Shown here: piece after piece, positions 30,843-60,588 of the stretch
How the letters are laid out: every line of letters begins with the position of its first letter
How positions within the stretch are numbered: position 1 is the stretch's first letter
NCBI RefSeq assembly: GCF_030705305.1
Contig: NZ_JAUZEE010000009.1
Span: forward strand, 1-64,000
Length of the DNA: 64,000 nt
Direction of reading: 5' to 3'
From: Leptothrix discophora
Lineage (GTDB): Bacteria > Pseudomonadota > Gammaproteobacteria > Burkholderiales > Burkholderiaceae_C
Notes under the pieces: generated by a model
Databases searched by the model: none
What the model saw: the letters and a program-made list of their open reading frames with translations, nothing else
What the model was told of the DNA's origin: nothing
Made by a program: the position numbers and the translations under genes

Positions 30843-30851
30843 CCTGTCAGT

Positions 30852-32220: not shown

Positions 32221-32258
32221 CGACGCGACCGGCCGCTGCGGGCCCCGCGCAGGAAACC

Positions 32259-32978: not shown

Positions 32979-32980
32979 GC

Positions 32981-41401: not shown

Positions 41402-42247
41402 TCAGCGGATGTTCGACAGCGGCCGTGACCGGCTGATGACCGCAGCCGGGTCCGCGCCGGCGCCCGGGTGCGGCATCCCGCGCTGCAGCCCGCGCTGCAT
41501 GCGCCGCGCCCGGCCGCGCACCGCCACCGCGCGCAGCAGCAGCGCCACGCCCCAGACCATCAGCCCGGCGAACAGGATGTCGCTGAGGAAATGGCCGCCC
41601 TGCAGCACCCGGCCGGCACCGACCAGCAGGCCGGCCAGCAGGCCGATGCGGGCCCATCGGCGACGCCGTCCCGGTGCCGCCAGCAGGCCGATCACCATCA
41701 CCGCATAGCCTTGCGCCGCATGGCCGCTGGGGAAGGAGCAGTTGCTGTCGCACAGCGCGCTGGGCTGGGCGATCGAGCGGAAGGGCTGGCTGCCGCCCAG
41801 GGTCTCGACGGCGGCCGGACGCGGCCGGCCCCAGTGCTCCTTGAAGCCGGCGTTGACCACCAGCCAGACGCCCAGCACCAGCATCGCGACGATCCACGGT
41901 GCCCGGGCACGCCAGCGCTGCAGGCCGGGCGACACCGGCCGGCGCCAGGCCATCAGCACCAGGCCGGCCAGCAGCGCGAGGCGGCCGATCCACGGCACCG
42001 TCCAGTAGACCGCCTGCACCAGCGGATGCAGGCCCCAGGCATAGGCCGGCGCGCCCTCGCCACCGGCCTGCCGCGCGGCCTGGCTGACGGCCAGGTCGAT
42101 GCCGGGCCAGCCGGCGAACACGCCGATGGCGAGCAGCGTCAGCGCCAGCCATGGCCAGGCGGCGCGGCGGCGGCGGCGGGTGCGGCTGGATGTGCTGTGG
42201 GAAGTGCTGTGGGAAGTGCTGGGGGTGTGGATCGGCACATGGGTCAT
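41402..42247 (-). CDS. PAP2-family membrane phosphatase (second of operon pair)
   Basis: 281 residues from ATG at 42247. About six transmembrane helices and the three PAP2 motifs: KEHWGRPRP, CSFPSGHA and GRVLQGGHFLSD. The CDSNCSFPSGH form is shared with LpxE-type lipid A 1-phosphatases and related lipid phosphatases. It overlaps the upstream transferase gene as ATGA and closes the six-gene operon. Likely substrate is a lipid phosphate (phosphatidate, phosphatidylglycerophosphate, undecaprenyl diphosphate or lipid A). Confidence 0.85.
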   Translation of the reverse strand: MTHVPIHTPSTSHSTSHSTSSRTRRRRRAAWPWLALTLLAIGVFAGWPGIDLAVSQAARQAGGEGAPAYAWGLHPLVQAVYWTVPWIGRLALLAGLVLMAWRRPVSPGLQRWRARAPWIVAMLVLGVWLVVNAGFKEHWGRPRPAAVETLGGSQPFRSIAQPSALCDSNCSFPSGHAAQGYAVMVIGLLAAPGRRRRWARIGLLAGLLVGAGRVLQGGHFLSDILFAGLMVWGVALLLRAVAVRGRARRMQRGLQRGMPHPGAGADPAAVISRSRPLSNIR

Positions 42248-46774: not shown

Positions 46775-47643
46775 GGTGTCGGATCGGGCAAGGGGGCTCG
46801 GTCGCCGTCGAGCAGCAGGGCCGGCCAGGCGGCCAGCAGGCTGACGGCGAGCCAGAAGAGGTGGACGATCAGCGCGGCGGCGACGACCTGGTCGATGGCG
46901 ACGGCACGACCGGCCGCCAGCGTGTTCAGGCCGGCCCAGACGCCGGCTTCGTAGGTGCCCAGGCCGCCGGGTGCCTGCAGGGGCAGCACGGCGGCCCATT
47001 CGCCGCCGAGCGCACCACGCAGCGTGGCCGCCAGCGTCAGGCCGGTCAGTTCGGCCAGCAAGGCGCCGACCACGGCCAGGCGCAGGCTCCAGTTGGCGGT
47101 CGCACAGAGCCAGGCGATGCGGTGTTGCCGACCCAGGCCGGTGATCGAGGCGAAGGCCGCGTGCAGCACGGCCAGGCCGACCGGTGCGACCAGCGCCAGC
47201 CAGGGCGACGGCGCGAACCAGGCGGCACCGGTCAGGGCCAGCAGCACGATCACGTCCTGCAGCCGCATCCACAGCAGGCTGGCCGACGAGGCCTTCCAGC
47301 CCACGCCCCAGCGCTGCTGCAGCCACAGGCCGTAGCCCAGCTCGCCGCTGCGCAGCGGCAGCAGCAGCACGGCGGCGTTGTGCAGCAGGCACAGGCGCAG
47401 GCAGGCAGCCCAGTCCGCGCCGGTGCGCACCTGCCATTCCGCATGCAGGCGGGTCGCCCGCAGGGCATGGCTGGCCAGCACCGTCAGCGCGGCCAGCAGC
47501 CAGAGCCCGGTGGGCAGCGCGCGGACCCGCTCGGCCAGCGTCGCCAGGTCCAACCCGTGCAAGGCCCAGGCAAAGCCGGCAACCACCGCGACGCTGGCCA
47601 GCAACAGGCCCACCAGCCGGCGTCGGGCAGGGCTGAGGTTCAC
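46771..47643 (-). CDS. Flippase-like membrane protein (LPG synthase TM-region family)
   Basis: 290 residues from GTG at 47643, which overlaps the PAP2 stop as GTGA. Seven or eight hydrophobic segments; SHALRATRLHAEW and PLRSGELGYGLWLQQRWGVGWKAS, with APGGLGTYEAGVW near the end, fit the UPF0104/AglD (lysylphosphatidylglycerol synthase transmembrane) family. Some members flip lipids; no soluble lysyl-transferase domain is attached. In this operon a lipid-carrier flipping role is a reasonable guess. Confidence 0.78.
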   Translation of the reverse strand: MNLSPARRRLVGLLLASVAVVAGFAWALHGLDLATLAERVRALPTGLWLLAALTVLASHALRATRLHAEWQVRTGADWAACLRLCLLHNAAVLLLPLRSGELGYGLWLQQRWGVGWKASSASLLWMRLQDVIVLLALTGAAWFAPSPWLALVAPVGLAVLHAAFASITGLGRQHRIAWLCATANWSLRLAVVGALLAELTGLTLAATLRGALGGEWAAVLPLQAPGGLGTYEAGVWAGLNTLAAGRAVAIDQVVAAALIVHLFWLAVSLLAAWPALLLDGDRAPLPDPTP

Positions 47644-48509
47644 GACGCTTCCGGCTGCGCCCGGCCACGTCGGCCACGCTGGACGCGCCACAACCCGGCC
47701 AGCCGCCACAGGGCCACGCCGGCGCCGATCGCGCCGAGCACGCGCTGGCCCGGCAGCGCCAGCGGGTAGCCGGTCGGCAGGCCCCACATCACGACCGAGC
47801 AGGCCAGCAGGCCGAGCGCCAGCACGGCGCTGCCGATCGGGCTCATGAGGTGAGCCACCCAGCGGCCGCGCTGGGCGCACCACCAGCCGGCATGGCCGAC
47901 CAGCACGCCCAGCGCGCCACCGGCGCAGACATCGGCCGGCCAATGCGCACCGACCGCGATGCGCGAGATCGCGACGGCCACGCACAGCGTCCAGACCGCC
48001 AGCCGCCAGGGCCGGGGCAGGCGCCGGTCCAGGCTGATCAGCGTGGCCACGGTGAAGGCGGTGACCGCATGGCCCGAGGGCATGGACTTCGACAGCAGCG
48101 GCGTGCCGACGACCACCAGCTGGTCCAGGCCCAGCGCAGCGGCCGGACGGGCCATCTGCACCAGGTTCTTGATGCCATGGGTCAACGCGCCGCCGATCGG
48201 GAAGCAGGCCAGCAGCGCGGCCAGCAGGCGGGTGCCGGCCTGGCTGGCGCGGTTCGATGCCGGCGGGGCGGCCAGCGCGAACACGATCAGCGCGCTCAGG
48301 CCCAGGCCCAGCACGCTCAGGCCCGACCACAGTTCGGGCGCCCAGGCCCCGGTGGCATTGATGGCGCGGAAGACCGCGAGGTGCAGCGCCTGCGAGGTCT
48401 CGCCGCCCAGCAGGTGCAGCAGCAGCGCGGTCGCGAGCACGGCGGCACTGGCCTGTCCGGCCGAGCGGTGCGCGGCGGGCAGGCTGCGGGGAACATGCAG
48501 GTCGGTCAT
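47640..48509 (-). CDS. PAP2-family membrane phosphatase (first of operon)
   Basis: 289 residues from ATG at 48509. PAP2 motifs are KNLVQMARP, SMPSGHAVT and SRIAVGAHWPADV, with about six helices. It opens the six-gene overlapping operon (PAP2, flippase-like, GT2, ArnT-like x2, PAP2). Four Pho-type half-sites at 11-nt steps lie just upstream on the minus strand. A role making diacylglycerol from phosphatidate, or recycling a polyprenyl diphosphate, would fit. Confidence 0.85.
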   Translation of the reverse strand: MTDLHVPRSLPAAHRSAGQASAAVLATALLLHLLGGETSQALHLAVFRAINATGAWAPELWSGLSVLGLGLSALIVFALAAPPASNRASQAGTRLLAALLACFPIGGALTHGIKNLVQMARPAAALGLDQLVVVGTPLLSKSMPSGHAVTAFTVATLISLDRRLPRPWRLAVWTLCVAVAISRIAVGAHWPADVCAGGALGVLVGHAGWWCAQRGRWVAHLMSPIGSAVLALGLLACSVVMWGLPTGYPLALPGQRVLGAIGAGVALWRLAGLWRVQRGRRGRAQPEAS

Positions 48510-48529
48510 GGGCCGATGCTCGACCGCAG

Positions 48530-48571
48530 CCGTGACAAGTCCTTGAAGGTCGCGTGACGGAACGATGACCT
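48530..48571 (-). promoter_or_regulatory. Candidate Pho box array for the PAP2-led operon
   Basis: On the minus strand GTCAT (48569-48565), GTCAC (48558-48554), TTCAA (48547-48543) and GTCAC (48536-48532) run at exact 11-nt steps, equivalent to two adjacent PhoB Pho boxes. The last half-site ends 22 bp before the ATG at 48509. Confidence 0.7.
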
Positions 48572-48588
48572 GCGCACACCGCTGCGAC

Positions 48589-48630
48589 GGGTCATCGCAG
48601 CGACACGCGATCGCCACGGTCCTGTCACGC
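48589..48630 (+). promoter_or_regulatory. Candidate Pho box array for the epimerase-lplT operon
   Basis: On the plus strand GTCAT (48591), GACAC (48602), GCCAC (48613) and GTCAC (48624) run at exact 11-nt steps, and the last ends 22 bp before the ATG at 48651. It mirrors the array pointing the other way. Confidence 0.7.
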
Positions 48631-48650
48631 AGCCTGCCCAGCATCGCGGC

Positions 48651-49700
48651 ATGACCTCGATCCTCGTTACCGGTGCAGCTGGCTTCATCGGCGCGCACGT
48701 CGCCCGCGCACTGGTTGGCCGTGGCCATCGCGTGTCGGCCTGCGACAACTTCAATGCCTACTACGACCCGAAGCTCAAGCAGGCGCGCGTGCAGGAGCTG
48801 CTCTGGCCGGTCGGCGTGAACGTGCAGCATGTCGACCTGACCGACGTCGCGGCCACGCAGCGGCTGGTCGAGGCCAGCGGCGCACAGGTGGTGCTGCACC
48901 TGGCAGCGCAGGCCGGCGTGCGCCACTCGGTCGACGCGCCACTGGACTACGTCCAGGCCAACCTGCTGGGCTTCGGCTCGGTGCTGGAGGCCTGCCGCCG
49001 CGCCGGCGTCGGCCACCTGCTGCATGCCAGCTCGTCGAGCGTCTACGGCCACCGCGAGGGCGAGGGCGAGGGCGGTGCGCGACCCTTTTCCGAGTCGGAC
49101 CGCATCGACCGTCCGGCGTCCTTCTACGCCGCCACCAAGGTCGCCAACGAGGCCATGGCCCATGCGACCGCGCGGGTCCACGGCCTGCCGACGACCTCGC
49201 TGCGCTTCTTCACCGTCTACGGTCCCTGGGGCCGTCCGGACATGGCCTGCTGGCTGTTCTCCGAGCGCATCCGCCTGGGCCTGCCCATCGTCGTGTTCGG
49301 CCGCGGCGAGCTGCGGCGCGACTTCACCTATGTGGACGACACCGTCGAGGCGGTCTGCCGCCTGATCGAGCGCGGCGCGCCACGGCCCGATGCGCAGGGC
49401 GCGCCGGTCGAGATCTTCAACGTCGGCCACAGCGTGCCGGCGACGGTCAACGAGCTGGTCGCCGGCCTGGAGCAGGCCATCGGCCGGCGCGCGGTGATCG
49501 AGCATGCGCCCCTGCAGGTCGGCGACGTGCCGCACACCGAGTCCGACCCGACCCGGTTGCGTGCGGCCATCGGCGACTGGCCGCGCACGCCGCTGGCGCG
49601 CGGCCTGGCCGAGTTCGCCGACTGGCATCGCGGCTGGCTGCAGCGTGGCGCGGGCCAGCCGCAGCGGGTGGCGATGCCGTCCTACGCGCAAGCGGCCTGA
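48651..49700 (+). CDS. NAD-dependent epimerase (UDP-glucuronate 4-epimerase-like)
   Basis: 349 residues. Extended SDR fold: NAD motif TGAAGFIG at the start, DNFNAYYDPKLKQAR, catalytic YAATK (Tyr about 159), and FFTVYGPWGRPDMA, the last typical of UDP-glucuronate/UDP-glucose 4-epimerases. RRDFTYVDDTVEAV follows. It could supply UDP-galacturonate or UDP-galactose for the glycosyltransferases around it. lplT begins four bases after its stop. Confidence 0.88.
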   Translation: MTSILVTGAAGFIGAHVARALVGRGHRVSACDNFNAYYDPKLKQARVQELLWPVGVNVQHVDLTDVAATQRLVEASGAQVVLHLAAQAGVRHSVDAPLDYVQANLLGFGSVLEACRRAGVGHLLHASSSSVYGHREGEGEGGARPFSESDRIDRPASFYAATKVANEAMAHATARVHGLPTTSLRFFTVYGPWGRPDMACWLFSERIRLGLPIVVFGRGELRRDFTYVDDTVEAVCRLIERGAPRPDAQGAPVEIFNVGHSVPATVNELVAGLEQAIGRRAVIEHAPLQVGDVPHTESDPTRLRAAIGDWPRTPLARGLAEFADWHRGWLQRGAGQPQRVAMPSYAQAA

Positions 49701-49703
49701 GCG

Positions 49704-51038
49704 GTGCACCGCCACGCCGGTTCGGCGGCAGGGGCCGGCCTGCCGCGCGGCTTCCATCGCCTGATCGCGGCGCAGTTCTGTTCGGCGCTGGCCGACAACG
49801 CGCTGCTGATCGTCACCATCGCCTTGCTGGTCGAACAGGGCGCGCCGGGCTGGTGGGCGCCGATGCTCAAGTTCGGCTTCACGCTGTCCTACGTGCTGCT
49901 GGCGCCGGTCGTCGGCCCGCTCGCCGATGCCTGGCCCAAGGCCCGTTTGATGGCCTGGATGAACCTCGTCAAGGTGCTGGGCGTGGTCGGCCTGCTGCTG
50001 GGCTGGCCGGTGCTGCTGGCCTTCTCGATCGTCGGCTTCGGTGCGGCCGCCTATGCGCCGGCCAAGTACGGCCTGGTGACCGAGATGGTCGGTGCCGACC
50101 GGCTGGTCGAGGCCAACGGCTGGATCGAGGTCTCGGTGGTCGGCGCGGCCCTGCTGGGTGCCGTCGTCGGCGGCGTGCTGGTCGGGCCGTGGTGGACCGG
50201 CTCGACGGCCTCGCTGGCCTGGCGTGAAGCGGTCGCGTGGCTGACGGGCCAGCCAGCGGAGGGGGTGCTCGGCCTGTCCCTGCTGGCGGTGCTTGCGGTG
50301 CATGCGCTGGCGTCCTGGCTGACCGTGGGCGTGCCCGACAGCGGCGCCCGCTACCCCGCCTGCGAGATCCATCCGCGGGCGCTGCTGCGCGCCTTCCGCG
50401 AGGCCAACCGCCTGCTCTGGCGGGATCCGGATGGCGGCCTGTCGCTGGCGGTCACGACCATCTTCTGGGGCCTGGGCGCGACGCTGCAGTTCATCGTGCT
50501 GCGCTGGGCCGCCGACGTGCTGCACCTGCCGCTCGACCGGGCGGCCTTCCTGCAGGCGGCCGTGGCCATCGGCGTGGTGGTCGGCGCGACCGCGGCCGGC
50601 CGCTGGGTCGCGCTGCACCAGGCCAAGCACATGCTGTGGGCCGGCGTCGCGCTGGGGCTGACCATGCCGGTGGTGGCGGTGACCTCGTCGCTGCCGCTGG
50701 CGCTGGCGCTGCTGGTCATCGTCGGGGCCGTCGGCGGGCTGATGGTGGTGCCGCTGAACGCCTTGCTCCAGCACCGCGGCTGCGAGCTGCTGAGTGCCGG
50801 CCGGTCGATCGCCGTCCAGGGCTTCAACGAGAACGCCAGCGTGCTGGCCATGCTGGCGATCTATGCCGGCCTGCTGGCGCTGGACGTCGGCATCGTGCCG
50901 CTGATGTGGGGCTTCGGCCTGGCCATCGCGCTGGCGATCGCTGGCCTGATCGTGCTGGAGCACCGGCGTGCCCGACGCGCCCGGCTGGCCGGGGCGCTTG
51001 CGCCACAGCCGTCGACGCCAGCCGGCGCGACGGGCTGA
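49704..51038 (+). CDS. lplT: Lysophospholipid transporter LplT
   Basis: 444 residues from GTG at 49704. MFS-type inner-membrane carrier with about 11-12 helices. FHRLIAAQFCSALADNALLIVTIALL, GPLADAWPKARLMAWMN and YAPAKYGLVTEMV are LplT signatures. It moves lysophospholipids into the cytoplasm for re-acylation. In E. coli it is fused in function to Aas acyltransferase, which is not present here. It is co-transcribed with the epimerase. Confidence 0.92.
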   Translation: MHRHAGSAAGAGLPRGFHRLIAAQFCSALADNALLIVTIALLVEQGAPGWWAPMLKFGFTLSYVLLAPVVGPLADAWPKARLMAWMNLVKVLGVVGLLLGWPVLLAFSIVGFGAAAYAPAKYGLVTEMVGADRLVEANGWIEVSVVGAALLGAVVGGVLVGPWWTGSTASLAWREAVAWLTGQPAEGVLGLSLLAVLAVHALASWLTVGVPDSGARYPACEIHPRALLRAFREANRLLWRDPDGGLSLAVTTIFWGLGATLQFIVLRWAADVLHLPLDRAAFLQAAVAIGVVVGATAAGRWVALHQAKHMLWAGVALGLTMPVVAVTSSLPLALALLVIVGAVGGLMVVPLNALLQHRGCELLSAGRSIAVQGFNENASVLAMLAIYAGLLALDVGIVPLMWGFGLAIALAIAGLIVLEHRRARRARLAGALAPQPSTPAGATG

Positions 51039-51044
51039 TCCGGC

Positions 51045-52289
51045 TCAGGGACTGAGCGGCAGGCCCGCAGCCAGCGGCGCGGCCGCTGCCGGTTCGGCAT
51101 GGCGCGCGATCGCGCCGCGCAGCACCGACTCGAAGCGCGCGACGATCGCGTCCCAGCCCAGGTCCTCGGCCCGCAGGCGAGCCTGCCGGCCGTGCTGGCG
51201 GCAGCGTGCCAGGTCCGACGACAGGCTCAGCGCATGAGCCACGAAGGCCCGGACATCGCCCGGCGACGCCAGCAGCCCGTGTTGGCCTGGCTCGACCAGC
51301 TCGCCGGCGGCGGCATGGTCGTAGGCCACCACGGCCAGGCCGCTGGCCATGGCCTCGGTGGTCACGTTGCCGAAGGTCTCGGTCAGGCTGGCGAAGACGA
51401 ACAGGTCGGCGCTGGCGTAGTGGGCGGCCAGTTCGGCCCCGCGCTGCTGGCCGGCGAAGACCACCTCGGGGTGGCGGGCCTGCAGCTCGGCGCGCTGCGG
51501 GCCGTCGCCGACCACGACCAGACGCGCCTTCGGCAGCGTGCGGGCGATGGCGTCGAAGGCGGCGCTCAGCACCGCGAGGTTCTTCTCCGCCGCGACCCGG
51601 CCGACGTAGAGCACGACCGGATCGTCCGGCCCGGCGCCCCAGCGCTGGCGCAGCGCCTCGCTGCGGTGCGCGGGTGCATAGCGCACGGTGTCGACGCCGC
51701 GCGTCACCACGTGCAGGTCGCGAAAGCCCTGGGCGGCCAGCTCGTCGCGCAGGGCCTCGGTGGGCACCATGGTGGCGTCGCAGCCGTTGTGGAAGTGGCG
51801 CAGCCAGGCGGCGATCGGACGGTGCAGGAAGCCGATGCCGTAGTGGCCGCTGTAGGCGTGGAAGTTGGTGCGGAAGTCCGAGCAGACCGGCAGGCCCAGC
51901 GAACGTGCCGCACGGCGAGCCGAAGCGCCGAGCGGGCCTTCGGTGGCGATGTGCACGACGTCCGGGCGGCGCTGCTGCCACATCCTGCGCAGCATGCGAG
52001 CGGCCGGCAGGCCCATGCGCAGGTCGGCGTAGAGGGGGATGGGCAGGCCGGGCAGGCGGTGCAGGCGCAGGCCGCCGACGAGTTCGGGGCGCGGCCCGGT
52101 GCAGGATTCGCCAGCCTGGCGCGGGCGCATCAGGTCGACGTCGTGGCCGCGTGTGACCAGGCCCTCGACCACGCGGGCCAGCGTCATCGCGACGCCATTG
52201 ACCTCGGGCGGATAGGTCTCGGTCACGCAGGCGATGCGCAGCGTGCGGGCGCGGCCGTCGGACGGCAGGCAGGCGAGGGCAGGGCTCAT
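51045..52289 (-). CDS. GT4-family glycosyltransferase
   Basis: 414 residues from ATG at 52289. GT-B fold; RIACVTETYPPEVNGVAMTL at the start resembles SqdX/MgtA-type lipid glycosyltransferases. The donor-binding EX7E motif reads ETFGNVTTEAMASG, and VLYVGRVAAEKNL and VVVGDGPQRAELQ precede it. Such enzymes add a sugar to diacylglycerol or to a monoglycosyl lipid. Convergent with lplT (6-bp gap). A minus-strand CTGTCAT and further half-sites lie in its upstream region. Confidence 0.87.
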   Translation of the reverse strand: MSPALACLPSDGRARTLRIACVTETYPPEVNGVAMTLARVVEGLVTRGHDVDLMRPRQAGESCTGPRPELVGGLRLHRLPGLPIPLYADLRMGLPAARMLRRMWQQRRPDVVHIATEGPLGASARRAARSLGLPVCSDFRTNFHAYSGHYGIGFLHRPIAAWLRHFHNGCDATMVPTEALRDELAAQGFRDLHVVTRGVDTVRYAPAHRSEALRQRWGAGPDDPVVLYVGRVAAEKNLAVLSAAFDAIARTLPKARLVVVGDGPQRAELQARHPEVVFAGQQRGAELAAHYASADLFVFASLTETFGNVTTEAMASGLAVVAYDHAAAGELVEPGQHGLLASPGDVRAFVAHALSLSSDLARCRQHGRQARLRAEDLGWDAIVARFESVLRGAIARHAEPAAAAPLAAGLPLSP

Positions 52290-52290
52290 G

Positions 52291-52330
52291 GTGACGATGC
52301 TGCGCCGGGCTCGCAACAATTCGATGACAG
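52291..52330 (-). promoter_or_regulatory. Candidate Pho box upstream of GT4 gene
   Basis: On the minus strand a perfect CTGTCAT (52330-52324) is followed at 11-nt steps by GTTGC (52317-52313), a non-matching unit, and GTCAC (52295-52291). The best pair is 52313-52330, 23-41 bp before the ATG at 52289. Confidence 0.5.
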
Positions 52331-52336
52331 GGCAAG

Positions 52337-52365
52337 CTGTCGCCGATCCGTCACGCGTCTTTCAT
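52337..52365 (+). promoter_or_regulatory. Candidate Pho box array upstream of the Mpo1-like gene
   Basis: CTGTCGC (52337), CCGTCAC (52348) and CTTTCAT (52359) are three plus-strand units at exact 11-nt steps. They lie about 140 bp before the GTG at 52504, implying a long leader if functional. Confidence 0.55.
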
Positions 52366-52503
52366 GTCCGCTCGTCACCATCGTGACACGCTGGCATCGT
52401 GCCCTGGCCGTGCCGCAAGGCACCGGGCCAATGCCCCGATGCCCCGATGCCCCGAACGGCCGATCGCCCGATCGACCGACCGCTCCCCCACCCGAGGACC
52501 GAC

Positions 52504-53202
52504 GTGAACCGCTTGCTTGAAACCCTGGCCGTGCAGCGCTGGGATGACCACCGCTACTACCACCACTGCCGCATCAACCAGAGCCTGCACCTGCTCAGCG
52601 CGATCAGCTTCCTGGTGTCCTACGTGCTGCTGTTCATCGACCCGGCCATGGCCGCCATCGTGGCGTGGTGCATCTCGATGCTGAGCCGCCAGGCCGGCCA
52701 TTTCTTCTTCGAGCCGCGTGGCTACGACGAGGTCAACCAGGCCACCGACGAGCACAAGGAAGAGATCAAGATCGGCTACAACATCCGCCGCAAGATCGTG
52801 CTGATGGGCGCCTGGGTCGTGATCCCGGCCGTGCTGTGGTTTGCGCCGTCGGTCGGCGGCCTGATCGAGCCGGCCACCGACTTCGGCGGCTGGGTGCATG
52901 ACGTGGGCATCGCCTGGCTCGCGCTGGGTGTCTCCGGCCTGATCTTCCGCGTCGTGCAGCTGTGGCTGACGCAGGACTTCATGACCGGCGTGGCCTGGGC
53001 CACCAAGATCATCACGGACCCCTTCCACGACATCAAGATGTACCACCGCTCGCCGCTGTACCTGCTGCGCGGCCAGCGCATCGACCCGATGGACCATGTG
53101 CGCAGCCATGTGGGTTCGCATGCGGGGTCGCATGCGGGTTCGCAGGCTGGCGCGTCCCCGGAAGACGGCGTTGCCGCCGAGGCAGAGAGCGTCACCCGCT
53201 GA
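52504..53202 (+). CDS. Membrane protein, distantly Mpo1/DUF962-like
   Basis: 232 residues from GTG at 52504; GAGGA at 52494-52498 supports this start. Four hydrophobic segments (about 30-48, 50-65, 100-118, 138-158). Histidines cluster: YYHHCRINQSLH, RQAGHFFFEP and FHDIKMYHRSP. The H...N...LH plus Q.GH..FE pattern recalls Mpo1/DUF962, an iron-dependent dioxygenase of 2-hydroxy fatty acids, but the match is distant and from memory. A Pro-free tail has three 12-bp repeats (HxGS units). It lies among lipid genes, divergent from GT4 and with Pho-type half-sites upstream. Confidence 0.65.
   Translation: MNRLLETLAVQRWDDHRYYHHCRINQSLHLLSAISFLVSYVLLFIDPAMAAIVAWCISMLSRQAGHFFFEPRGYDEVNQATDEHKEEIKIGYNIRRKIVLMGAWVVIPAVLWFAPSVGGLIEPATDFGGWVHDVGIAWLALGVSGLIFRVVQLWLTQDFMTGVAWATKIITDPFHDIKMYHRSPLYLLRGQRIDPMDHVRSHVGSHAGSHAGSQAGASPEDGVAAEAESVTR
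53107..53142. repeat. Three 12-bp tandem repeats at the Mpo1-like C-terminus
   Basis: Units CATGTGGGTTCG, CATGCGGGGTCG and CATGCGGGTTCG encode three His-x-Gly-Ser repeats; a fourth degenerate unit follows at 53143-53154. The frame is kept. Confidence 0.7.
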
Positions 53203-53261
53203 GTCCTTCGCAGGTGGGCGACGGGCCGCAGGCGGCCCTGACGCATCGTGCTATCCGACGC

Positions 53262-53289
53262 AGAAGGCCGGCCCTCGGGCCGGCCTTCT
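53262..53289. terminator. Bidirectional terminator-like hairpin
   Basis: A 13-bp perfect stem (AGAAGGCCGGCCC paired with GGGCCGGCCTTCT) with a 2-nt loop lies between the convergent Mpo1-like and aminotransferase genes. T-rich ends follow on the plus strand (CTTCTTC). It would serve both strands. Confidence 0.7.
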
Positions 53290-53306
53290 TCACGCCAGCC
53301 GCGTGT

Positions 53307-54962
53307 TCATCGGCCGAAGCGGTGTCCGAGCATCTCGCGCAGCAGGCCGCGCTTGATGGCCTTGTGGCTCAGCTCGGGCGGCGTGTCCCACCAGCCGTCG
53401 GCCTTCATCGCCAGCGCGGCGGCGACGAAGCGCTGCTGCACCTCGGCGAAGTCGGTGTCGTCGTAGTTCAGGCTGAAGATCAGCCGGCCGCTGCCGACCC
53501 AGCTCAGCGCCAGGCCCTGGGCGCGCAGGTAGAACTGCAGCATCCAGTGGTGGCGCGCCGGCTGCGTGTAGAGCACCGTCCAGACCGTCGAGAGGTTGGC
53601 CACCCGCACCGGCACGCCTGCCTGCGCCAGCGCGGCATTGAAGCGTTCGGCGCGGCCGTTCCAGCGGTCCTCCAGGCCGTCGTAGAGGGCCCGCACCTCG
53701 GGCGTCTCCAGGCGGTCGAGGAAGGCCTTCATCGCGCCCAGCACGTAGGGGTGGGCGTTGAAGGTGCCGCGTGCGAAGCAGATGTCGGCCGGACGATCCT
53801 CGCGATAGCGCTTCATCAGTTCATGCTTGCCACACACCACGCCGACCGGCAGACCGCCGCCCAGCGTCTTGCCGTACGTGACCATGTCGGCCCGGACGCC
53901 GAAGTACTCCTGCGCGCCGCCCGGCGCCAGCCGGAAGCCCATGAAGACCTCGTCGAAGATCAGCACGACGCCGTTGGCCGTGCAGACCTCGCGCAGGCGG
54001 TGCAGCCAGGCGGTGTAGGCCGCGCGGTCGTAGCCGGCCCGGCGGCTGCCGTCGACCAGCGACGAATCGCCCGGCGCGGCGCTGTTCGGGTGCAGCGCCT
54101 GCAGCGGGTTGATCAGCACGCAGGCGATGTCCTTGCGGCTGCCGATGACCTTCAGCGCCTGCTCGCTCATGTCGGCCAGCGTGTAGGTCTCGCGCGGTGG
54201 CAGCGGGTTGCCGGGGCCGGGCTGCACGTCCTCCCACCAGCCGTGGTACGCCCCGGCGAAGCGCACCAGGTTGCGGCGGCGGGTGTGGTAACGGGCCAGG
54301 CGCACGGCCTGCATGACGGCTTCGGTGCCGGACATGTGGAAGCTCACCTCGTCCTGGCCGGAGATGGCCTTCAGGCGGCGCATGTTCTCGATCAGCACCG
54401 GGTGGTAGGCGCCCAGCACCGGGCCGAGCGACTCGGCGGTCTGCACGCCCTCGGCGATGCAGGCCTTGTAGGTGTCGTAGCCCAGCAGGTTGACGCCGTA
54501 GGAGCCGGTCAGGTCGTAGAACTCGGCGCCGTCGAGGTCGCGCACCTTCACGCCTTCGGACGACGCCAGGAAGCCGCCGAGCTTGAGGTGCTGTCGCAGG
54601 TAGGGGCTGAAGGGGTAGGGCACCCGGTAGCTGCCGGTGAACTGCAGGTCGGCCAGCATCTCGCGCGCCTCGGCGGTGGCGGCGATGCTCTTCGGGTGGC
54701 GCGTGGCCAGCGTGTCGCACAGCCGGGCGAAGCCGGCGCGGCGGCGCGCCAGGACCTCGTCGGCCGCACCGTCGCAGCCGAAGAACTGGGCCTCGTCGTA
54801 GGCATAGCCGGGGATCTGCCCGGCCACGCGCTTGGCCATGCGGGAATGGCCGGTCAGCGAGCGGTGCTTGGCACGCGACAGCTCAAGCCGTCGATGAGCC
54901 TTGGGCACCAGCCAGGCCAGCGTGGCAAGCGCCACCGCGGTGAGCGCAAAGGAATCGTTCAT
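53307..54962 (-). CDS. Class III PLP aminotransferase with N-terminal membrane anchor
   Basis: 551 residues from ATG at 54962. The body matches glutamate-1-semialdehyde aminomutase-like class III enzymes: FYDLTGSYGVNLLGYD, SFHMSGTEAVMQAVRLAR, VRFAGAYHGWWEDVQPG, LIFDEVFMGFR, and the PLP lysine in MVTYGKTLGGGLPVG (about 365). Unlike soluble GSAM (about 430 residues) it has an N-terminal hydrophobic helix (about 4-20, LTAVALATLAWLVP) and some 90 more residues before the fold. Membrane anchoring and the lipid-gene setting suggest a lipid-linked amino or keto substrate. It is divergent from psd. Confidence 0.82.
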   Translation of the reverse strand: MNDSFALTAVALATLAWLVPKAHRRLELSRAKHRSLTGHSRMAKRVAGQIPGYAYDEAQFFGCDGAADEVLARRRAGFARLCDTLATRHPKSIAATAEAREMLADLQFTGSYRVPYPFSPYLRQHLKLGGFLASSEGVKVRDLDGAEFYDLTGSYGVNLLGYDTYKACIAEGVQTAESLGPVLGAYHPVLIENMRRLKAISGQDEVSFHMSGTEAVMQAVRLARYHTRRRNLVRFAGAYHGWWEDVQPGPGNPLPPRETYTLADMSEQALKVIGSRKDIACVLINPLQALHPNSAAPGDSSLVDGSRRAGYDRAAYTAWLHRLREVCTANGVVLIFDEVFMGFRLAPGGAQEYFGVRADMVTYGKTLGGGLPVGVVCGKHELMKRYREDRPADICFARGTFNAHPYVLGAMKAFLDRLETPEVRALYDGLEDRWNGRAERFNAALAQAGVPVRVANLSTVWTVLYTQPARHHWMLQFYLRAQGLALSWVGSGRLIFSLNYDDTDFAEVQQRFVAAALAMKADGWWDTPPELSHKAIKRGLLREMLGHRFGR

Positions 54963-55032
54963 GGGTCCGTTCCGTGGCCTTCGAGGGCCGTGGGTTGAAG
55001 CGAGACCCGATGTCTAACTTTCAGAATTGACA

Positions 55033-55050
55033 ACGTCATGAAAACGTCAC
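55033..55050 (+). promoter_or_regulatory. Pho-box-like pair overlapping the psd start
   Basis: ACGTCATGAAAACGTCAC contains GTCAT (55035) and GTCAC (55046), 11 nt apart with an A-rich spacer, but it overlaps the psd ATG (55038). It may be chance, or the true start may be further downstream. Confidence 0.3.
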
Positions 55051-55916
55051 TGCTGCAGAAGATCCTGGCCCAGGAAGACCTCAACTTCCTGCTCACCAAC
55101 CGGGTGCCACGCATCGCGCTGACCCGCTTCATGGGCTGGTACAGCCAGATCCGCAGCCCGCTGCTGGCGCGGCTGTCGATCGCGGTCTGGCGCTGCTTCA
55201 CCGACCTCGACCTGAGCGAGTCGCCGCCCCAGCGCTATGGCTCGCTGCACGATTGCTTCACGCGGCCGATCCGGCCCGAGGCGCGGCCCGTCGATGCGGA
55301 CCCTGACGGCCTGTGCAGCCCGAGCGACGCCATCGTCGGCGCCTGCGGCGCTGTGGAGGGCACGCGGGTCTTCCAGGCCAAGGGCTACCCGTACGAGCTG
55401 GCCGAGCTGTTCGGTCCGAACCAGGACACCACGCCCTTCCACGACGGCGTGTTCGTCACGCTGCGGCTGACCTCGGCGATGTACCACCGCTTCCATGCGC
55501 CGCAGGACCTGTCGGTCGAGCATGTCACCTACCTCAGCGGCGACACCTGGAACGTCAACCCGATCGCGCTGCAGCGGGTCGAGAAGCTGTTCTGCCGCAA
55601 CGAGCGTGCGGTGCTCAACACGCGACTGGCGCGCACCGGCGAGCCGATCGCCATCGTGCCGGTGGCGGCCATCCTGGTGGCCAGCCTGCGGCTGCATTTC
55701 CTCGACACGCTGCTGCATGTGCGCTACCGCGGCCCGAACGAGATCCCGGTGCAGGCGAGCTTCCGCAAGGGCGAGGAAATGGGCTGGTTCCAGCACGGCT
55801 CGACCATCATCGTGTTCGCGCCACGCGGCTGGACGCTGTGCGAGGGCATCGCCAACGGCGCGCGCATCCGCATGGGCCAGCCGCTGCTGCGGCCGGCGGT
55901 GCCGCCGGCGCGCTGA
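55038..55916 (+). CDS. psd: Phosphatidylserine decarboxylase
   Basis: 292 residues. Pyruvoyl enzyme making phosphatidylethanolamine. Core motifs: SPSDAIVGACGAVEG, TLRLTSAMYHRFHAPQD and FRKGEEMGWFQHGSTIIVF. Self-cleavage occurs before the Ser of the GST (about residue 254); the preceding residue is His where E. coli has Leu (LGST). The N-terminal amphipathic part (FLLTNRVPRIALTRFMGWYS) is usual for the family. It is followed after 63 bp by GT28 and shares its upstream region with the aminotransferase gene. It may not be the cell's housekeeping copy, given its setting. Confidence 0.88.
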   Translation: MKTSLLQKILAQEDLNFLLTNRVPRIALTRFMGWYSQIRSPLLARLSIAVWRCFTDLDLSESPPQRYGSLHDCFTRPIRPEARPVDADPDGLCSPSDAIVGACGAVEGTRVFQAKGYPYELAELFGPNQDTTPFHDGVFVTLRLTSAMYHRFHAPQDLSVEHVTYLSGDTWNVNPIALQRVEKLFCRNERAVLNTRLARTGEPIAIVPVAAILVASLRLHFLDTLLHVRYRGPNEIPVQASFRKGEEMGWFQHGSTIIVFAPRGWTLCEGIANGARIRMGQPLLRPAVPPAR

Positions 55917-55956
55917 GCGTCACCGCATCGACACGCTCCCGTCACGATTCCGACGC
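55917..55956 (+). promoter_or_regulatory. Candidate Pho box array upstream of GT28
   Basis: GTCAC (55919), GACAC (55930), GTCAC (55941) and GACGC (55952) follow at exact 11-nt steps in the 63-bp psd-GT28 gap, starting at the psd stop and ending 24 bp before the GT28 ATG. Confidence 0.65.
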
Positions 55957-55979
55957 GGTGGCTGCGGACCATCGCGGCC

Positions 55980-57164
55980 ATGCAGACCGTCGACCTTGTC
56001 TACTTCAACTACGGCGGCGGCCACCGTGCGGCCGCCGTGGCGCTGGAACAGGTGATCGCCCGGCAGCGCCGGCCCTGGCACGTGCGGCGCGTCGACCTGG
56101 TCGAGGTGCTCGATCCGAACGAGCAGTTCCGCAAGCTCACCGGACTCGCGCCCGAGGATCTCTACAACAAGCGGCTGGCGCACGGCTGGACCTGGGGCAT
56201 GAAGCCCGAGCTGAAGCTGCTGCAGGGCCTGATCCGCGCCAGCCACGAGCTGATCTGCCAGCGCCTGTCGCAGCACTGGCTGCGCAGCGAGCCCGACCTG
56301 GTGGTCTCGCTGGTGCCCAACTTCAACCGCGCGCTGTGCCTGTCGCTGCAGGCCAGCCTGCCGGGCGTGCCCTTCGTGACGGTGATGACCGACATCGCCG
56401 ACCTGCCGCCGCACTTCTGGATCGAGCCGGACGCGCCGCAGCAGCGCATCGTCTGCGGCAGCGAGCGTGCGCTGGCCCAGGCCCGCGAGGCCGGCGTGCC
56501 CGATGCCCGCCTGGACCTGACCACCGGCATGATCCTGCGGCCCGAGTTCCACGAGGCCCGGCCGATGACCCGCGACCGGCGCGAGGCGGGCCTGCGCGCG
56601 CTGGGCCTGGACCCGGAGCGCCCTGTCGGCATCGTGATGTTCGGCGGCGAAGGATCCAGCCAGATGCTGCGCATCGCCCGCGAGCTGGACGGCCACCAGC
56701 TGATCCTGATGTGTGGCCGCAATGAAGCGCTGGCTCACCGACTGAGCCAGCTCAGGCGCGGCGCGCCGCATGCGGTGGTCGGCTACACGAGCGAGGTGGT
56801 GGCGCTGCTGCAGCTGGGCAGCTGGTTCTGCGGCAAGCCCGGCCCCGGCAGTCTCAGCGAGGCGGTGCAGGCCGGCCTGCCGGTCATCACCTTCCGCAAC
56901 AGCCGCACGATGCCGCAGGAACGCTACAACACCGACTGGGTGCGCGAGCAAGGCTATGGCCTGGTGATCGGCTCGATCGGCCAGATCGGCGCGGCGGTCG
57001 ACGAGCTGCTGCAGCGCCTGCCCGAGTTCCGTCGGCGCGTGCTGGGCTGCGACAACCGCGCGGTCTTCGAGGTGGTCGACATCCTGGCCGACCAGCTGCT
57101 GCGCAGCGCGGCGGTGGCCGCTCCCACGCGGATCGGACGGGAACGCGCGCTGCGCCTGTCATGA
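55980..57164 (+). CDS. GT28 diacylglycerol glycosyltransferase (MGDG-synthase-like)
   Basis: 394 residues. The N-terminal acceptor domain begins VDLVYFNYGGGHRAAAVAL, the MGDG-synthase GGGH motif. The C-terminal donor domain contains VGIVMFGGEGS and FCGKPGPGSLSEAVQAGLPV, the GT28 nucleotide-sugar site. Related Agt and MGDG synthases make mono-glycosyl-diacylglycerol, notably under phosphate starvation in proteobacteria. It has its own Pho-type array, just after psd. It would use diacylglycerol from PlcP-like or PAP2 enzymes. Confidence 0.88.
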   Translation: MQTVDLVYFNYGGGHRAAAVALEQVIARQRRPWHVRRVDLVEVLDPNEQFRKLTGLAPEDLYNKRLAHGWTWGMKPELKLLQGLIRASHELICQRLSQHWLRSEPDLVVSLVPNFNRALCLSLQASLPGVPFVTVMTDIADLPPHFWIEPDAPQQRIVCGSERALAQAREAGVPDARLDLTTGMILRPEFHEARPMTRDRREAGLRALGLDPERPVGIVMFGGEGSSQMLRIARELDGHQLILMCGRNEALAHRLSQLRRGAPHAVVGYTSEVVALLQLGSWFCGKPGPGSLSEAVQAGLPVITFRNSRTMPQERYNTDWVREQGYGLVIGSIGQIGAAVDELLQRLPEFRRRVLGCDNRAVFEVVDILADQLLRSAAVAAPTRIGRERALRLS

Positions 57165-57173
57165 CCGTTACAC
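57156..57173 (+). promoter_or_regulatory. Possible Pho box upstream of the 5'-nucleotidase
   Basis: CTGTCATGACCGTTACAC has a perfect CTGTCAT first half and a weaker second half 11 nt later. It overlaps the GT28 stop and lies 46 bp before the nucleotidase ATG. Confidence 0.45.
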
Positions 57174-57219
57174 GGTGAATCGGCAGTGTGCGGACTTTCC
57201 TCCACACCCGAACCCGCCC

Positions 57220-59100
57220 ATGTCCGCTCGCCTCCCCGTCCTTCGTCGCCTGGTCGTCAGGTCCGTGCTGTTCACCGCCGTCCTGGCCGCCCTTGTCGGC
57301 TGTGGTGGTTCCGATGGCGAGACCACGGCGGCCACGACCTACGCGCCCATCGAGATCAACATCGCGCACATCAACGACCACCACTCGCAGCTTGAGCCGA
57401 TCGCGAACACGCAGCTCACGCTCGACGGCGTGGCCACGCAGGTTGACCTCGGTGGATTCGCGCGTCTGACCACGCTGTTCAAGGCCCAGGCTGGCACCCG
57501 CAACCTGCTCAAGCTGCACGCAGGCGATGCCGTGACGGGCACGCTGTACTACACGTTCTACAAGGGCGAGGCCGACGCGAAGATGATGAACACCATCTGC
57601 TTCGACGCCTTCGAGCTGGGCAACCATGAGTTCGACGACGGTGACCAGGCGACCCGCAACTTCATCGACGCGCTCTACACCCCGCTGTGCCAGACGCCGG
57701 TGCTGGCCGCCAACGTCGTGCCGGCCAGCGGCACGCCGCTGAACCCGGCCGGCGCGCCGGTCATCCGGCCCTACATCGTCAAGACCTACGACGGCGTGAA
57801 CGTCGGCATCATCGGCCTGGACATCGCCGGCAAGACCACCAACTCATCGCGCCCGCTGTCGACCACGCAGTTCCTCGACGAGGCGGCCACCGCGCAGCGC
57901 TACATCGACGAGCTCAAGGCGCAGGGCATCCGCCACATCGTGCTGATGACGCACCAGGGCTACGACAACGACCGCGCGATGGCCGCCCGCCTGAGCGATG
58001 TCGACGTCATCATCGGCGGTGACTCCCACACCCTGCTGGGCGACTTCACGGCCTTCGGACTGAGCAGCTCGGGCGCCTATCCCACCCGGGTCACCAACCG
58101 CGACGGTGACACCGTCTGCATCGGCCAGGCCTGGGAATATGCCAAGGTCTTCGGACTGATGAACGTGTCCTTCAACAGCCGCGGTGCGGTGGCCAGCTGC
58201 GGCGGCCATGCCTCGCTGGTGATCGGTGACACCTTCAAGCGCAGCAATGGCACCGCCTTCGTCGCCGTCGATGAGCCGACCAAGGCTGACCTGCTGACCA
58301 AGCTGGCCGCCGATCCGCGCATCAAGGTGACGACGCCGGATGCGGGCGCGGCCGCCATCTTGTCGACCTACACCAGCCAGGTCACCGCCGAGAAGGCCAA
58401 GACCATCGGCACCGCCAGCGAGGCGCTGTGCCTCGTGCGCGTGCCGGGCGAGACGACCAACCGCTCGGCCACCGTGCCGGGCTGCGAGACCGCCAACACG
58501 CTGGCGCGAGGCAGCGATGCGGCCCAGGTCGTGTCGGAGGCCTTCCTCAAGGCCAGCCTGCGCGCGGACTTCGCGCTTCAGAACGCCGGCGGCGTGCGCG
58601 TGCCGGTGGCGGCCGGCACGCTGACGATGAACACGGCCTTCACGCTGCTGCCCTTCACCAACGTGCTGGTCGAGATGAACGTGACCGGCGCGCAGATGGT
58701 GGCCGCGCTCGAGGATGGCATCGCCAACCACCTGGACAACCTGCAATCCACCGGCTCGCACCCCTATGCGGCCGGCCTGCGCTGGGACCTGGACATGAGC
58801 AAGGCCAAGGGCAGCCGTGTCACGAACGTCGAGGTGCGCAGCCGGGTGGGCAACACCTGGTCGGCGATCGTCCCGACCCAGACCTATGTGCTGGTGACCA
58901 ACGACTTCGTCGCGGCCGGCCAGGACGGCTACGCGACGCTTGGCGCGATCTTCCGCACCGGCGCCTACGTCAACACCTACCTGCTCTACACGCAGACCTT
59001 CGCCGACTACGTGATCGCCAACACGCCGATCGCGCGTCCGCTGGCGGGCAACTACGCGCACAAGTCGGTCATCACGGCCGCCGGTGTCACGCTGCCCTGA
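57220..59100 (+). CDS. 5'-nucleotidase / 2',3'-cyclic phosphodiesterase family lipoprotein
   Basis: 626 residues from ATG at 57220. A signal ending in lipobox LVGC (Cys28) marks a lipoprotein. The metallophosphatase domain has AHINDHHSQLEP, LHAGDAVTGT, ELGNHEFDDG, LMTHQGYDND and GGDSHT. The C-terminal 5'-nucleotidase domain has LQNAGGVRVPV and NDFVAAGQDGYATL. It would release phosphate from nucleotides in the periplasm, as UshA does. A Pho-box-like sequence precedes it and the phytase-like gene follows after 55 bp. Confidence 0.9.
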   Translation: MSARLPVLRRLVVRSVLFTAVLAALVGCGGSDGETTAATTYAPIEINIAHINDHHSQLEPIANTQLTLDGVATQVDLGGFARLTTLFKAQAGTRNLLKLHAGDAVTGTLYYTFYKGEADAKMMNTICFDAFELGNHEFDDGDQATRNFIDALYTPLCQTPVLAANVVPASGTPLNPAGAPVIRPYIVKTYDGVNVGIIGLDIAGKTTNSSRPLSTTQFLDEAATAQRYIDELKAQGIRHIVLMTHQGYDNDRAMAARLSDVDVIIGGDSHTLLGDFTAFGLSSSGAYPTRVTNRDGDTVCIGQAWEYAKVFGLMNVSFNSRGAVASCGGHASLVIGDTFKRSNGTAFVAVDEPTKADLLTKLAADPRIKVTTPDAGAAAILSTYTSQVTAEKAKTIGTASEALCLVRVPGETTNRSATVPGCETANTLARGSDAAQVVSEAFLKASLRADFALQNAGGVRVPVAAGTLTMNTAFTLLPFTNVLVEMNVTGAQMVAALEDGIANHLDNLQSTGSHPYAAGLRWDLDMSKAKGSRVTNVEVRSRVGNTWSAIVPTQTYVLVTNDFVAAGQDGYATLGAIFRTGAYVNTYLLYTQTFADYVIANTPIARPLAGNYAHKSVITAAGVTLP

Positions 59101-59155
59101 GCCTGGGCCGGTCGGCCTGAACGTCATCACGAACCTTTCTCCACCGGAGTCCGAC

Positions 59156-60541
59156 ATGTTCAAGTTCCATCCCGTCCTGACGGCGCTGCTGGCCTCGCTG
59201 GCCTGCGCCCTTGCCGCACCGGCGGTCCAGGCGCAGACCGAGGTCACCGCCGTGCTGGCCGGCCATGCCCGCCTGCCGCATGACGCGACCGTGGCCGCGC
59301 CGCGCGAGGCCGGGCCGCTGTACCAGACCGCCGGCAAGTTTGTCGCCGCCAACCGGCTGCGCGTCGAGAGCCTCGGCAGCGTGCCCGGCAACACCTTCGT
59401 CGGCGACCCGAAGTTCCCGCGGGCCTCGGGTGGCGCGCTGCCCATCCAGGGCCAGTCGGTGCAGGGCTTCTCGGCCATCGTGGCGCTGGGCAAGGACGAG
59501 TTCCTGGCGATGACCGACAACGGCTTCGGCAGCCGGATCAACTCGGCCGATGCGCTGCTGATGGTCCACCGTGTCAAGGCCGACTGGGCCTCGGGCCAGG
59601 TCCGCCGCCTGCACACGACCTTCCTGCGCGACCCGCAGCGCAAGGTCCCCTTCCTGATCCAGAACGAGGCCACCCGCGAGCGTTTCCTGACGGGCGCGGA
59701 CCTCGACATCGAGTCGCTGCAGGTGGTGGGCGACGAGTGGTGGATCGGCGACGAGTTCGGTCCCTACGTGATCCGCTTCAACCACCAGGGCGAGGCGCTC
59801 GGCCTGATCGAGACCACCGTCGGCGACAGGACCTATCGCGGCCCGGACCACCATTCGCAAGGCCGCCTGCCCAACTACCCGGCCGACGCCGGTGGCTGGG
59901 AGGTGCGCCGCTCCGGTGGCTTCGAGCCGATGGCGAAGTCGCCCGATGGCAAGACGCTCTACCCGATGTTCGAGTGGCCGCTGTGGGATGCCGCCAGCAA
60001 GGCGCAGGAACAGGTCGACGGCAAGCCCTACACCCGCATCCTCGAACTGGACGCGGCGAGCCGCCGCTACACCGGCAAGACCTGGAAGTACCGCTTCGAG
60101 GCCGTGGGCAACGTGGCCGCCGACTTCCAGCTGCTCGACGCCCGCACCGGCCTGGTGATCGAGCGCGACGACGCCACCGAAGGCGCCGGCCCGGGCTGCC
60201 CGGACGAGCCGCGCACCGACTGCTTCACGCGGCCGGCCCGCTTCAAGCGCATCTACAAGATCGACCTGGCCGGCGCCGATGCCGACGGCTTCGTGCGCAA
60301 GGTGGCCTACATCGACCTGACGAAGATCGCCAACCCGAAACGCCTGGCCAAGGTCGGCCCGAACGAGGACGTCTTCGTGCTGCCGCACCTCGGCCCGGAA
60401 GGCCTGACGGTGGTCGATGCGCGCCATGTCGTGGTCGTCAACGACAACAACTTCCCGTATTCGTCGGGCCGCCAGATCGGCAAGCCCGACGACAACGAGC
60501 TGACGCTGCTGGACATCGGCGCGCTGGTCGACGCGAAGTGA
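59156..60541 (+). CDS. Phytase-like esterase domain protein, exported
   Basis: 461 residues from ATG at 59156. Signal peptide (LTALLASLACALAAPAVQAQ, cleavage near 27). The body fits the esterase-like activity of phytase family (PF13449-type beta-propeller): GFSAIVALGKDEFLAMTDNGFGSR, DIESLQVVGDEWWIGDEFGPY, LPHLGPEGLTVVD and VNDNNFPYS. The acidic loops are metal-binding candidates. It probably hydrolyses organic phosphate esters outside the cytoplasm and is likely co-expressed with the nucleotidase upstream. Confidence 0.87.
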   Translation: MFKFHPVLTALLASLACALAAPAVQAQTEVTAVLAGHARLPHDATVAAPREAGPLYQTAGKFVAANRLRVESLGSVPGNTFVGDPKFPRASGGALPIQGQSVQGFSAIVALGKDEFLAMTDNGFGSRINSADALLMVHRVKADWASGQVRRLHTTFLRDPQRKVPFLIQNEATRERFLTGADLDIESLQVVGDEWWIGDEFGPYVIRFNHQGEALGLIETTVGDRTYRGPDHHSQGRLPNYPADAGGWEVRRSGGFEPMAKSPDGKTLYPMFEWPLWDAASKAQEQVDGKPYTRILELDAASRRYTGKTWKYRFEAVGNVAADFQLLDARTGLVIERDDATEGAGPGCPDEPRTDCFTRPARFKRIYKIDLAGADADGFVRKVAYIDLTKIANPKRLAKVGPNEDVFVLPHLGPEGLTVVDARHVVVVNDNNFPYSSGRQIGKPDDNELTLLDIGALVDAK

Positions 60542-60546
60542 GACCG

Positions 60547-60588
60547 GCCGTGGTTCTTCCGCTGACGCGTCAGCGGAAGAACCACGGC
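60547..60588. terminator. 42-bp perfect palindrome between convergent genes
   Basis: The bases from 60547 to 60588 are fully self-complementary with no loop (arms start GCCGTGGTTCTTCCGC). It begins six bases after the phytase-like stop and covers the last codons of the TRAP large permease (stop at 60570-60572). It probably acts as a terminator for both convergent transcripts. Confidence 0.75.

Follow-up and report, generated by a model that had tools for sequence, protein, structure and literature searches.

We analysed a stretch of 64,000 nucleotides from Leptothrix discophora (NCBI RefSeq assembly GCF_030705305.1, contig NZ_JAUZEE010000009.1, positions 1 to 64,000 of the forward strand), hereafter the window, for a group of putative lipid-modifying genes preceded by PhoB-type sites. 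Four genes form its core. The first encodes a GT4 glycosyltransferase, probably Agt-type, with Pfam GT4 domains (51045-52319, minus strand). It is followed by a gene for an Mpo1-like membrane protein, a possible iron oxygenase with a sub-threshold match to PF06127 (52504-53202, plus strand; the most likely start is GTG at 52504), and by a gene for a class III, pyridoxal phosphate (PLP)-dependent aminotransferase (53307-54962, minus strand; PF00202, 111 bits), the N-terminus of which appeared hydrophobic by eye. The fourth gene encodes a second paralogue of phosphatidylserine decarboxylase (Psd) (55038-55916, plus strand; PF02666, 180 bits). A frequent partner, the lysophospholipid transporter LplT (NF008397, 459 bits at a cut-off of 297), is encoded next to the GT4 gene at 49704-51038 on the plus strand.

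A preliminary description had assigned all genes within 12-20 kb of this DNA to a single locus for lipid remodelling during phosphate starvation. The gene types it listed are present in the window, two of them (GT28 and Mpo1-like) with weak assignments. Conservation of these neighbours was assessed in the best 80 of at least 596 relatives, a scan of named genomes that need not reflect the layout of the cassette in all carriers. In 49 of the 80 loci at least 5 kb was available on both sides of the module, the other 31 having shorter flanks. GT4, Mpo1-like, aminotransferase and Psd genes were present together in all 49, and in 48 loci they lay within 5 kb of the aminotransferase gene. A lack of conserved neighbours, which would have spoken against the preliminary description, was thus not observed for these four genes. 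The layout matched that of the window in 43 loci; in five the aminotransferase gene alone was inverted and in one (L139) the GT4 gene was 11 kb away. Across the loci the aminotransferase gene alone was flipped, with the rest of the cassette unchanged, in L110, L121-L123, L125, L129, L133 and L183. LplT was found in 31/49 loci and GT28 in 5/49, whereas epimerase, PAP2, GT39, GT2, LPG-TM and nucleotidase genes each occurred in 1/49 and the phytase-like esterase gene in none. Approximately 19.5-kb neighbourhoods of 15 non-self relatives gave a similar picture: Mpo1-like, aminotransferase and Psd in 15/15, GT4 in 14/15, LplT in 10/15 and GT28 in 2/15. These counts rule out GT28 as a core member and also a single pathway spanning all 12-20 kb, as most genes of that block are not conserved. 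The functional unit is better limited to the 49.7-55.9 kb region together with a PlcP-like gene at 20.8 kb.

Orthologues of the aminotransferase (56-100% identity, next relatives approximately 34%) were detected in 16 of 60 related genomes including the window's own, and in 40/399 genomes of the order, representing 24/159 genera. Matches numbered 11/369 genomes in the class and 21/299 in the phylum, own genome included. Among the matches listed in the scan of named genomes, carriers include Pelomonas, Roseateles, Paucibacter, Variovorax, Limnohabitans, Polaromonas, Curvibacter, Hydrogenophaga, Dechloromonas, Sulfuricella and others.

Predicted phosphate control and the PlcP-like gene

A matrix of half-site pairs, derived from other genomes and applied at a threshold of 13 bits, gave 13 sites in the window compared with 2.3 per shuffled sequence. 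The 11-nucleotide half-site arrays noted earlier therefore exceed chance and are of the PhoB type. Sites of at least 13 bits precede the PAP2 operon (three overlapping pairs), the Mpo1-like gene, the aminotransferase/Psd pair and the nucleotidase gene, and others lie near the PlcP-like gene and elsewhere. Sites before the epimerase (12.7 bits) and GT28 genes (pairs at 55917-55945, 10.9 and 11.6 bits) are weaker. Upstream of the Mpo1-like gene, half-sites at 11-nucleotide steps extend over 52337-52389 on the plus strand (9.3, 21.9 and 13.3 bits). Pho-box-like pairs in the divergent aminotransferase/Psd promoter (55027-55050, no strand assigned) are weaker evidence, as they overlap the Psd start codon.

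The divergent GT4/Mpo1 promoter was compared across loci. In 76/84 regions an 11-nucleotide tandem Pho pair was detected at p<=0.05, whereas the convergent Mpo1/aminotransferase control region gave 2/79. Independently of any matrix, pairs of [GT]TCA[CT] at exactly 11 nucleotides were counted 75 times in 75 deduplicated GT4/Mpo1 regions compared with 0.6 expected, with further spacing peaks at 13, 22, 24, 35 and 46. For the aminotransferase/Psd promoter, an initial result of 74/81 was discarded as partly an artefact of the Psd start codon and replaced by a strictly intergenic count (see below); TGTCAA occurred in 41/72 of these intergenic regions (3.9 expected). Near-consensus Pho boxes were also seen before GT4 and in the aminotransferase/Psd region of a distant relative (L209). 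Tandem 7-nucleotide half-sites at 11-nucleotide spacing before genes, the hallmark of the Pho regulon, are present as predicted sites, and the core cassette may well be under PhoB-type control.

The preliminary description was correct that known remodelling consists of PlcP plus Agt, but it overlooked a PlcP homologue in the same window. This calcineurin-type phosphoesterase gene (20832-21614, minus strand; Metallophos) lies in the same Pho island, with a 17.0-bit Pho pair upstream, at 21819. The name PlcP rests on the pairing with an Agt-type GT4 and on Pho sites rather than on a characterized PlcP sequence: the protein is 54% identical to a phage PlcP-like protein adjoining an Agt-type GT4, and the only solved relatives found were UDP-2,3-diacylglucosamine hydrolases (23 bits). 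PlcP was present in 16/16 relatives with the aminotransferase and in 27/44 without it (Fisher p 0.0026, relatives not independent). A GT4 of the module family was found in 15/16 versus 4/44, at most 30 candidates per genome being scored. PlcP lies inside 32/80 loci, or 14/35 with full flanks, and in the window it is 30 kb from the GT4 gene. In G055, which lacks the aminotransferase, a GT4 of the module family directly adjoins PlcP. This suggests that the module GT4 belongs to the type acting together with PlcP.

The available text of PMC8528852 describes a PlcP-Agt operon in Pseudomonas aeruginosa (PA3219-PA3218) with both genes paired under Pho boxes. With this system and that of marine bacteria the cassette shares Pho boxes, a PlcP-like gene and a GT4-type glycosyltransferase, as far as the available texts describe them (PMC8528852, PMC4796936), but it adds the Mpo1-like protein, the aminotransferase and the second Psd. 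The word aminotransferase is absent from the main text of PMC8528852. In the literature searched, mostly via abstracts, we found no description of the gene set GT4/Mpo1-like/aminotransferase/Psd, and the earlier statement that the last three have no described place in lipid remodelling held within the same literature.

The added enzymes

The closest solved relative of the aminotransferase is a mycosubtilin synthase subunit A chain (6kfm). D337 and K365, the latter presumably the PLP lysine as in the family, were invariant in a 30-row alignment. An ordinary glutamate-1-semialdehyde aminomutase was considered and rejected, because the orthologues, at 50-90% identity (E below 1e-170), group apart from their next relatives (approximately 34%, E 3.5e-49).

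Assignment of the Mpo1-like protein to the Mpo1/DUF962 family (PF06127) is plausible because two orthologues (G049 and G011, 24.6 and 24.3 bits) pass the cut-off of 24 and because H33, H37, N42, H46, H83 and E87, invariant in an alignment of 36 orthologues, resemble the H..N..H and GHxxFE pattern of short DUF962 proteins. Three further orthologues scored 21.6-22.6 bits, under the cut-off. The window protein is longer and divergent compared with this family, for which no placement in bacterial lipid remodelling was found in the literature searched. Its AlphaFold (AF2) model is fairly confident, with a mean predicted local distance difference test score of 84; a structure search with this model gave no match among solved structures in the PDB (best E 0.96).

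Yeast Mpo1 oxidizes hydroxy fatty acids. The module could alter acyl chains, with the Mpo1-like protein oxidizing hydroxy fatty acids and the aminotransferase forming amino fatty acids, to give an amino-fatty-acid lipid. The kinship of the aminotransferase with mycosubtilin synthase, the aminotransferase domain of which we take to act on beta-ketoacyl chains, points in this direction, as does the Pfam name of the Mpo1-like family, 2-hydroxy-palmitic acid dioxygenase. We nevertheless regard acyl-chain modification as unlikely, since it leaves the dedicated Psd, the GT4, the PmtA-like gene and the viral PlcP-Agt-Mpo1 blocks described below unexplained.

The Psd gene comes in addition to the housekeeping copy. 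Among the 60 relatives (PF02666), all 16 genomes with the aminotransferase carry two Psd copies, whereas of the 44 without it, 41 have one, two have none (completeness 65% and 68%) and one has two. In a 23-row alignment, D97, H150, H153, G254, S255 and T256 of the module Psd were invariant; these correspond to what we take to be the catalytic Asp/His residues and the GST self-cleavage site, and the protein can be aligned with the solved Psd 7cnw. Comparison of 72 module with 30 housekeeping sequences (one housekeeping row of 44 residues, at least one overlong) yielded 43 class-specific columns, two of which are gaps in the housekeeping set. Two of the substitutions lie close to the catalytic His: Arg143 occurs in 72/72 module sequences where 28/30 housekeeping sequences have Tyr, and Met148 in 71/72 where 28/30 have Asp. 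His253 (71/72) precedes the self-cleavage Gly-Ser, a position occupied by Leu in the housekeeping copy. Such substitutions would fit a changed substrate.

Psd and, in another class, a PmtA-like enzyme stand side by side as in the pathway from phosphatidylserine (PS) through phosphatidylethanolamine (PE) to phosphatidylcholine (PC), but the cassette differs in having a divergent second Psd near Pho-type sites, beside the housekeeping copy. It could be argued that several separate Pho functions are merely co-located, with PlcP and GT4 making ordinary glycolipids, the second Psd making PE from PS, and the aminotransferase and Mpo1-like protein having another role. Pho islands do collect unrelated genes, and the window also has polyphosphate and phosphonate genes. 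On the other hand, the core stays together in 49/49 loci, even where the aminotransferase gene alone is inverted, an aminotransferase-Mpo1 fusion exists, and the module is paired with a second Psd. We therefore consider mere co-location improbable.

Variants in other classes and viral contigs

In 20 neighbourhoods from the class and phylum searches, the Mpo1-like gene was found in 18 (counting fused, 29%-identical copies in L226 and L227) and Psd in 16; the L218 and L224 stretches stop only a short way beyond the module. Eight loci (L209-L216) belong to another class of the phylum; in each of them a PmtA-like methyltransferase gene adjoins the Mpo1-like gene, and in the three loci scanned the best NCBIfam profile for its product was PmtA (134-151 bits, cut-off 390). 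A Sphingomonas parapaucimobilis plasmid carries Psd, aminotransferase, Mpo1-like (annotated as hypothetical protein) and methyltransferase genes in a row. In L217, L219, L220 and L225 a GT4-region protein is encoded between aminotransferase and Psd, and in the two that were scanned (L217:9853-12672, L225:10344-13049) the GT4 domain is fused to approximately 480 N-terminal residues without a Pfam match, in which PHP-like motifs were seen by eye.

Aminotransferase and Mpo1-like protein share a single open frame in L226:8268-10493 and L227:8510-10723 (737 aa in L227); the fused sequence was read through in L226 and seen as one frame in L227. Around it lie genes for a BtaA homologue (DUF3419, 346 and 369 bits; we take DUF3419 to be BtaA), a methyltransferase, PlcP and GT4. 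L227 additionally has an alkaline phosphatase gene near the fusion. The BtaA-BtaB pathway to the betaine lipid diacylglyceryl-trimethylhomoserine (DGTS) shares with the proposed pathway the logic of a phosphorus-free zwitterionic lipid, as well as this BtaA homologue near the fusion. The core cassette itself is without BtaA (none among the window proteins scanned), and its amine would derive from transamination rather than from S-adenosylmethionine. In L221 an Acetyltransf_5-domain gene, presumably OlsB-type, adjoins the Mpo1-like gene.

Stand-alone Mpo1-like homologues were also seen on conjugative Bradyrhizobium plasmids (L309 and L312), where the other module genes were not among the features shown; in pNK6a the homologue is annotated Blr4581 protein and lies among transposases.

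These contexts also bear on whether the product contains phosphorus. An amino- or glyco-phospholipid such as glycosylated PE would serve envelope protection rather than phosphorus saving. The best NCBIfam profile for the GT4 is indeed N-acetylglucosaminyl phosphatidylglycerol synthase, but its 147.5 bits are far under the cut-off of 480. Known Psd enzymes use phospholipids; against this stand the co-occurrence with PlcP and the BtaA and OlsB-like genes nearby in single loci. A phosphorus-containing product thus appears very unlikely.

Scanning IMG/VR with the Mpo1-like alignment identified 55 viral contigs (51-66% identity), of which many are short and 10 exceed 100 kb. The fetched stretches encode a PlcP-like protein in 24/55 and an Agt-type GT4 in 26/55 cases; no aminotransferase was found in IMG/VR viral contigs. 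PstS was found in 5/55 (over the NCBIfam cut-off in L285), which may represent two kinds of phage, as L264/L266 and L283-L285 look near-duplicate. Adjoining DNA ligase, primase, exonuclease and endonuclease genes match PHROGs; otherwise the viral label is that of IMG/VR. The viral block holds exactly the putative functions proposed below for the first three steps, PlcP, GT4 and Mpo1-like. Its occurrence, in a few cases with PstS, suggests that viruses may remodel host membranes and free phosphorus. Five of 50,697 GenBank phage records matched the PlcP-like protein.

In L264, L266 and L283-L285, PstS, PlcP-like, Agt-type GT4 and Mpo1-like genes occur together and may form a lipid-remodelling block carried by phages. 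In 28/55 viral contigs the Mpo1-like gene has a class-I glutamine-amidotransferase-like gene in its vicinity (e.g. L264:3545-4204). Pelagibacter phage Mosig (L310), one of the five records matched, encodes a 48% identical PlcP-like protein that is annotated putative UDP-2,3-diacylglucosamine hydrolase; its gene adjoins one for a phosphate ABC transporter.

Proposed pathway and Pho-island neighbours

Our proposal builds on what could be read from the DNA itself: the gene set, its conservation, the predicted Pho arrays, the second Psd, the joint occurrence with PlcP and the settings that involve a methyltransferase, BtaA or phages. On balance, we favour the idea that the core genes extend PlcP-Agt remodelling under PhoB control and convert a glycolipid into an amino-lipid free of phosphorus. 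Under phosphate shortage, PlcP would cleave phospholipid to diacylglycerol, to which the GT4 would add a sugar. Oxidation of the lipid-borne sugar by the Mpo1-like protein may then yield a carbonyl for the membrane-anchored aminotransferase to aminate, after which the Psd paralogue (Psd2) may decarboxylate the amino-acid head group. The product would be a phosphorus-free, amine-bearing lipid mimicking the series from PS to PE, and the PmtA-like enzyme, where present, might N-methylate it to a PC mimic. We infer the substrates, the order of the steps, the product and each chemical step; the scheme is compatible with most of the gene contexts observed. An aminotransferase upstream makes sense because Psd requires an amino group next to the removed carboxyl and PmtA requires an amine. 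The observations of the preliminary description are confirmed, and its interpretation is supported in part: the cassette would constitute a new, conserved and Pho-regulated branch of lipid remodelling with a putative product.

Several findings weigh against this proposal. No GT4 gene was detected in L052, L214-L216, L218 and L221, L213 showed just a fragment of one, and the neighbourhoods of L226 and L227 yielded no Psd. Conversely, PlcP (27/44) and GT4 (4/44) occur in genomes without the aminotransferase, and G057 still has two Psd genes without it. The 60 relatives are not independent, which makes Fisher tests overstate significance. Homology of the Mpo1-like protein is borderline (16.8 bits for the window protein against PF06127), and hhalign comparison with canonical DUF962 sets was weak, with probabilities of 28% and 4%. 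The window GT4 and the phage Agt-type protein share only 33% identity, and the phage Mpo1-like protein had just one match (unannotated) among the 50,697 GenBank phage records. As to control, the pair in the aminotransferase/Psd promoter overlaps the Psd start codon, the strictly intergenic count was six pairs at 11 nucleotides versus 0.4 expected, and in L212, from the other class, no Pho pair exceeded the threshold in its stretch.

The phosphorus-free lipids known from bacteria are mainly glycolipids, betaine lipids and ornithine lipids. If the proposal is true, the cassette represents a further route to such lipids in many genera such as Pelomonas, Roseateles, Variovorax and Limnohabitans, and it offers defined genes for lipidomics. 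One specific product can be envisaged. In diacylglycerylcarboxyhydroxymethylcholine (DGCC), glycerol-O-CH(COO-)-O-choline, an acetal carboxylate takes the place of the phosphate of PC. Speculatively, and with a small chance of being right, the cassette might supply the missing biosynthesis of DGCC-type lipids, which are isosteres of PS, PE and PC without phosphorus, with the first three steps also encoded in large phages. The Mpo1-like protein would open a lipid-linked pentose between C2 and C3, C1-C2 becoming the acetal carboxylate. From the remaining O-linked three-carbon acid the aminotransferase would form O-linked serine, Psd2 O-linked ethanolamine and the PmtA-like enzyme O-linked choline, i.e. 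DGCC. This speculative carbon arithmetic would be neat for a pentose, whereas a hexuronic acid would need an extra step. According to the available text of PMC10685587, nothing is known so far about DGCC synthesis, and that of PMC7242380 reports tentative DGCC in groundwater.

The remaining genes look like local Pho-island neighbours, since few or none of the 49 loci keep them. An operon with PAP2, two PMT_2 (GT39-like), GT2, LPG_synthase_TM and PAP2 genes (41405-48509, minus strand; 1/49 loci) is preceded by four Pho half-sites (48532-48571, minus strand; 13.1, 14.5 and 14.9 bits). An epimerase gene identified in the gene-type scan of the window (48651-49700) lies upstream of LplT. Downstream of Psd follow an accessory GT28/monogalactosyldiacylglycerol synthase-like glycosyltransferase (55980-57164; 20.7 bits, under the cut-off of 25) and, outside the conserved core, an NadN/UshA-type nucleotidase (57175-59100) and a phytase-like esterase (59156-60541), all four on the plus strand. 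Polyphosphate kinase, Ppx/GppA phosphatase, PhnI and PhnJ genes at 26000-35000, with a Pho pair of 20.7 bits at 31727, indicate that the window is a wider Pho island. A perfect, terminator-like inverted repeat of 40 nucleotides (60548-60587) separates the phytase-like gene from TRAP-transporter genes.

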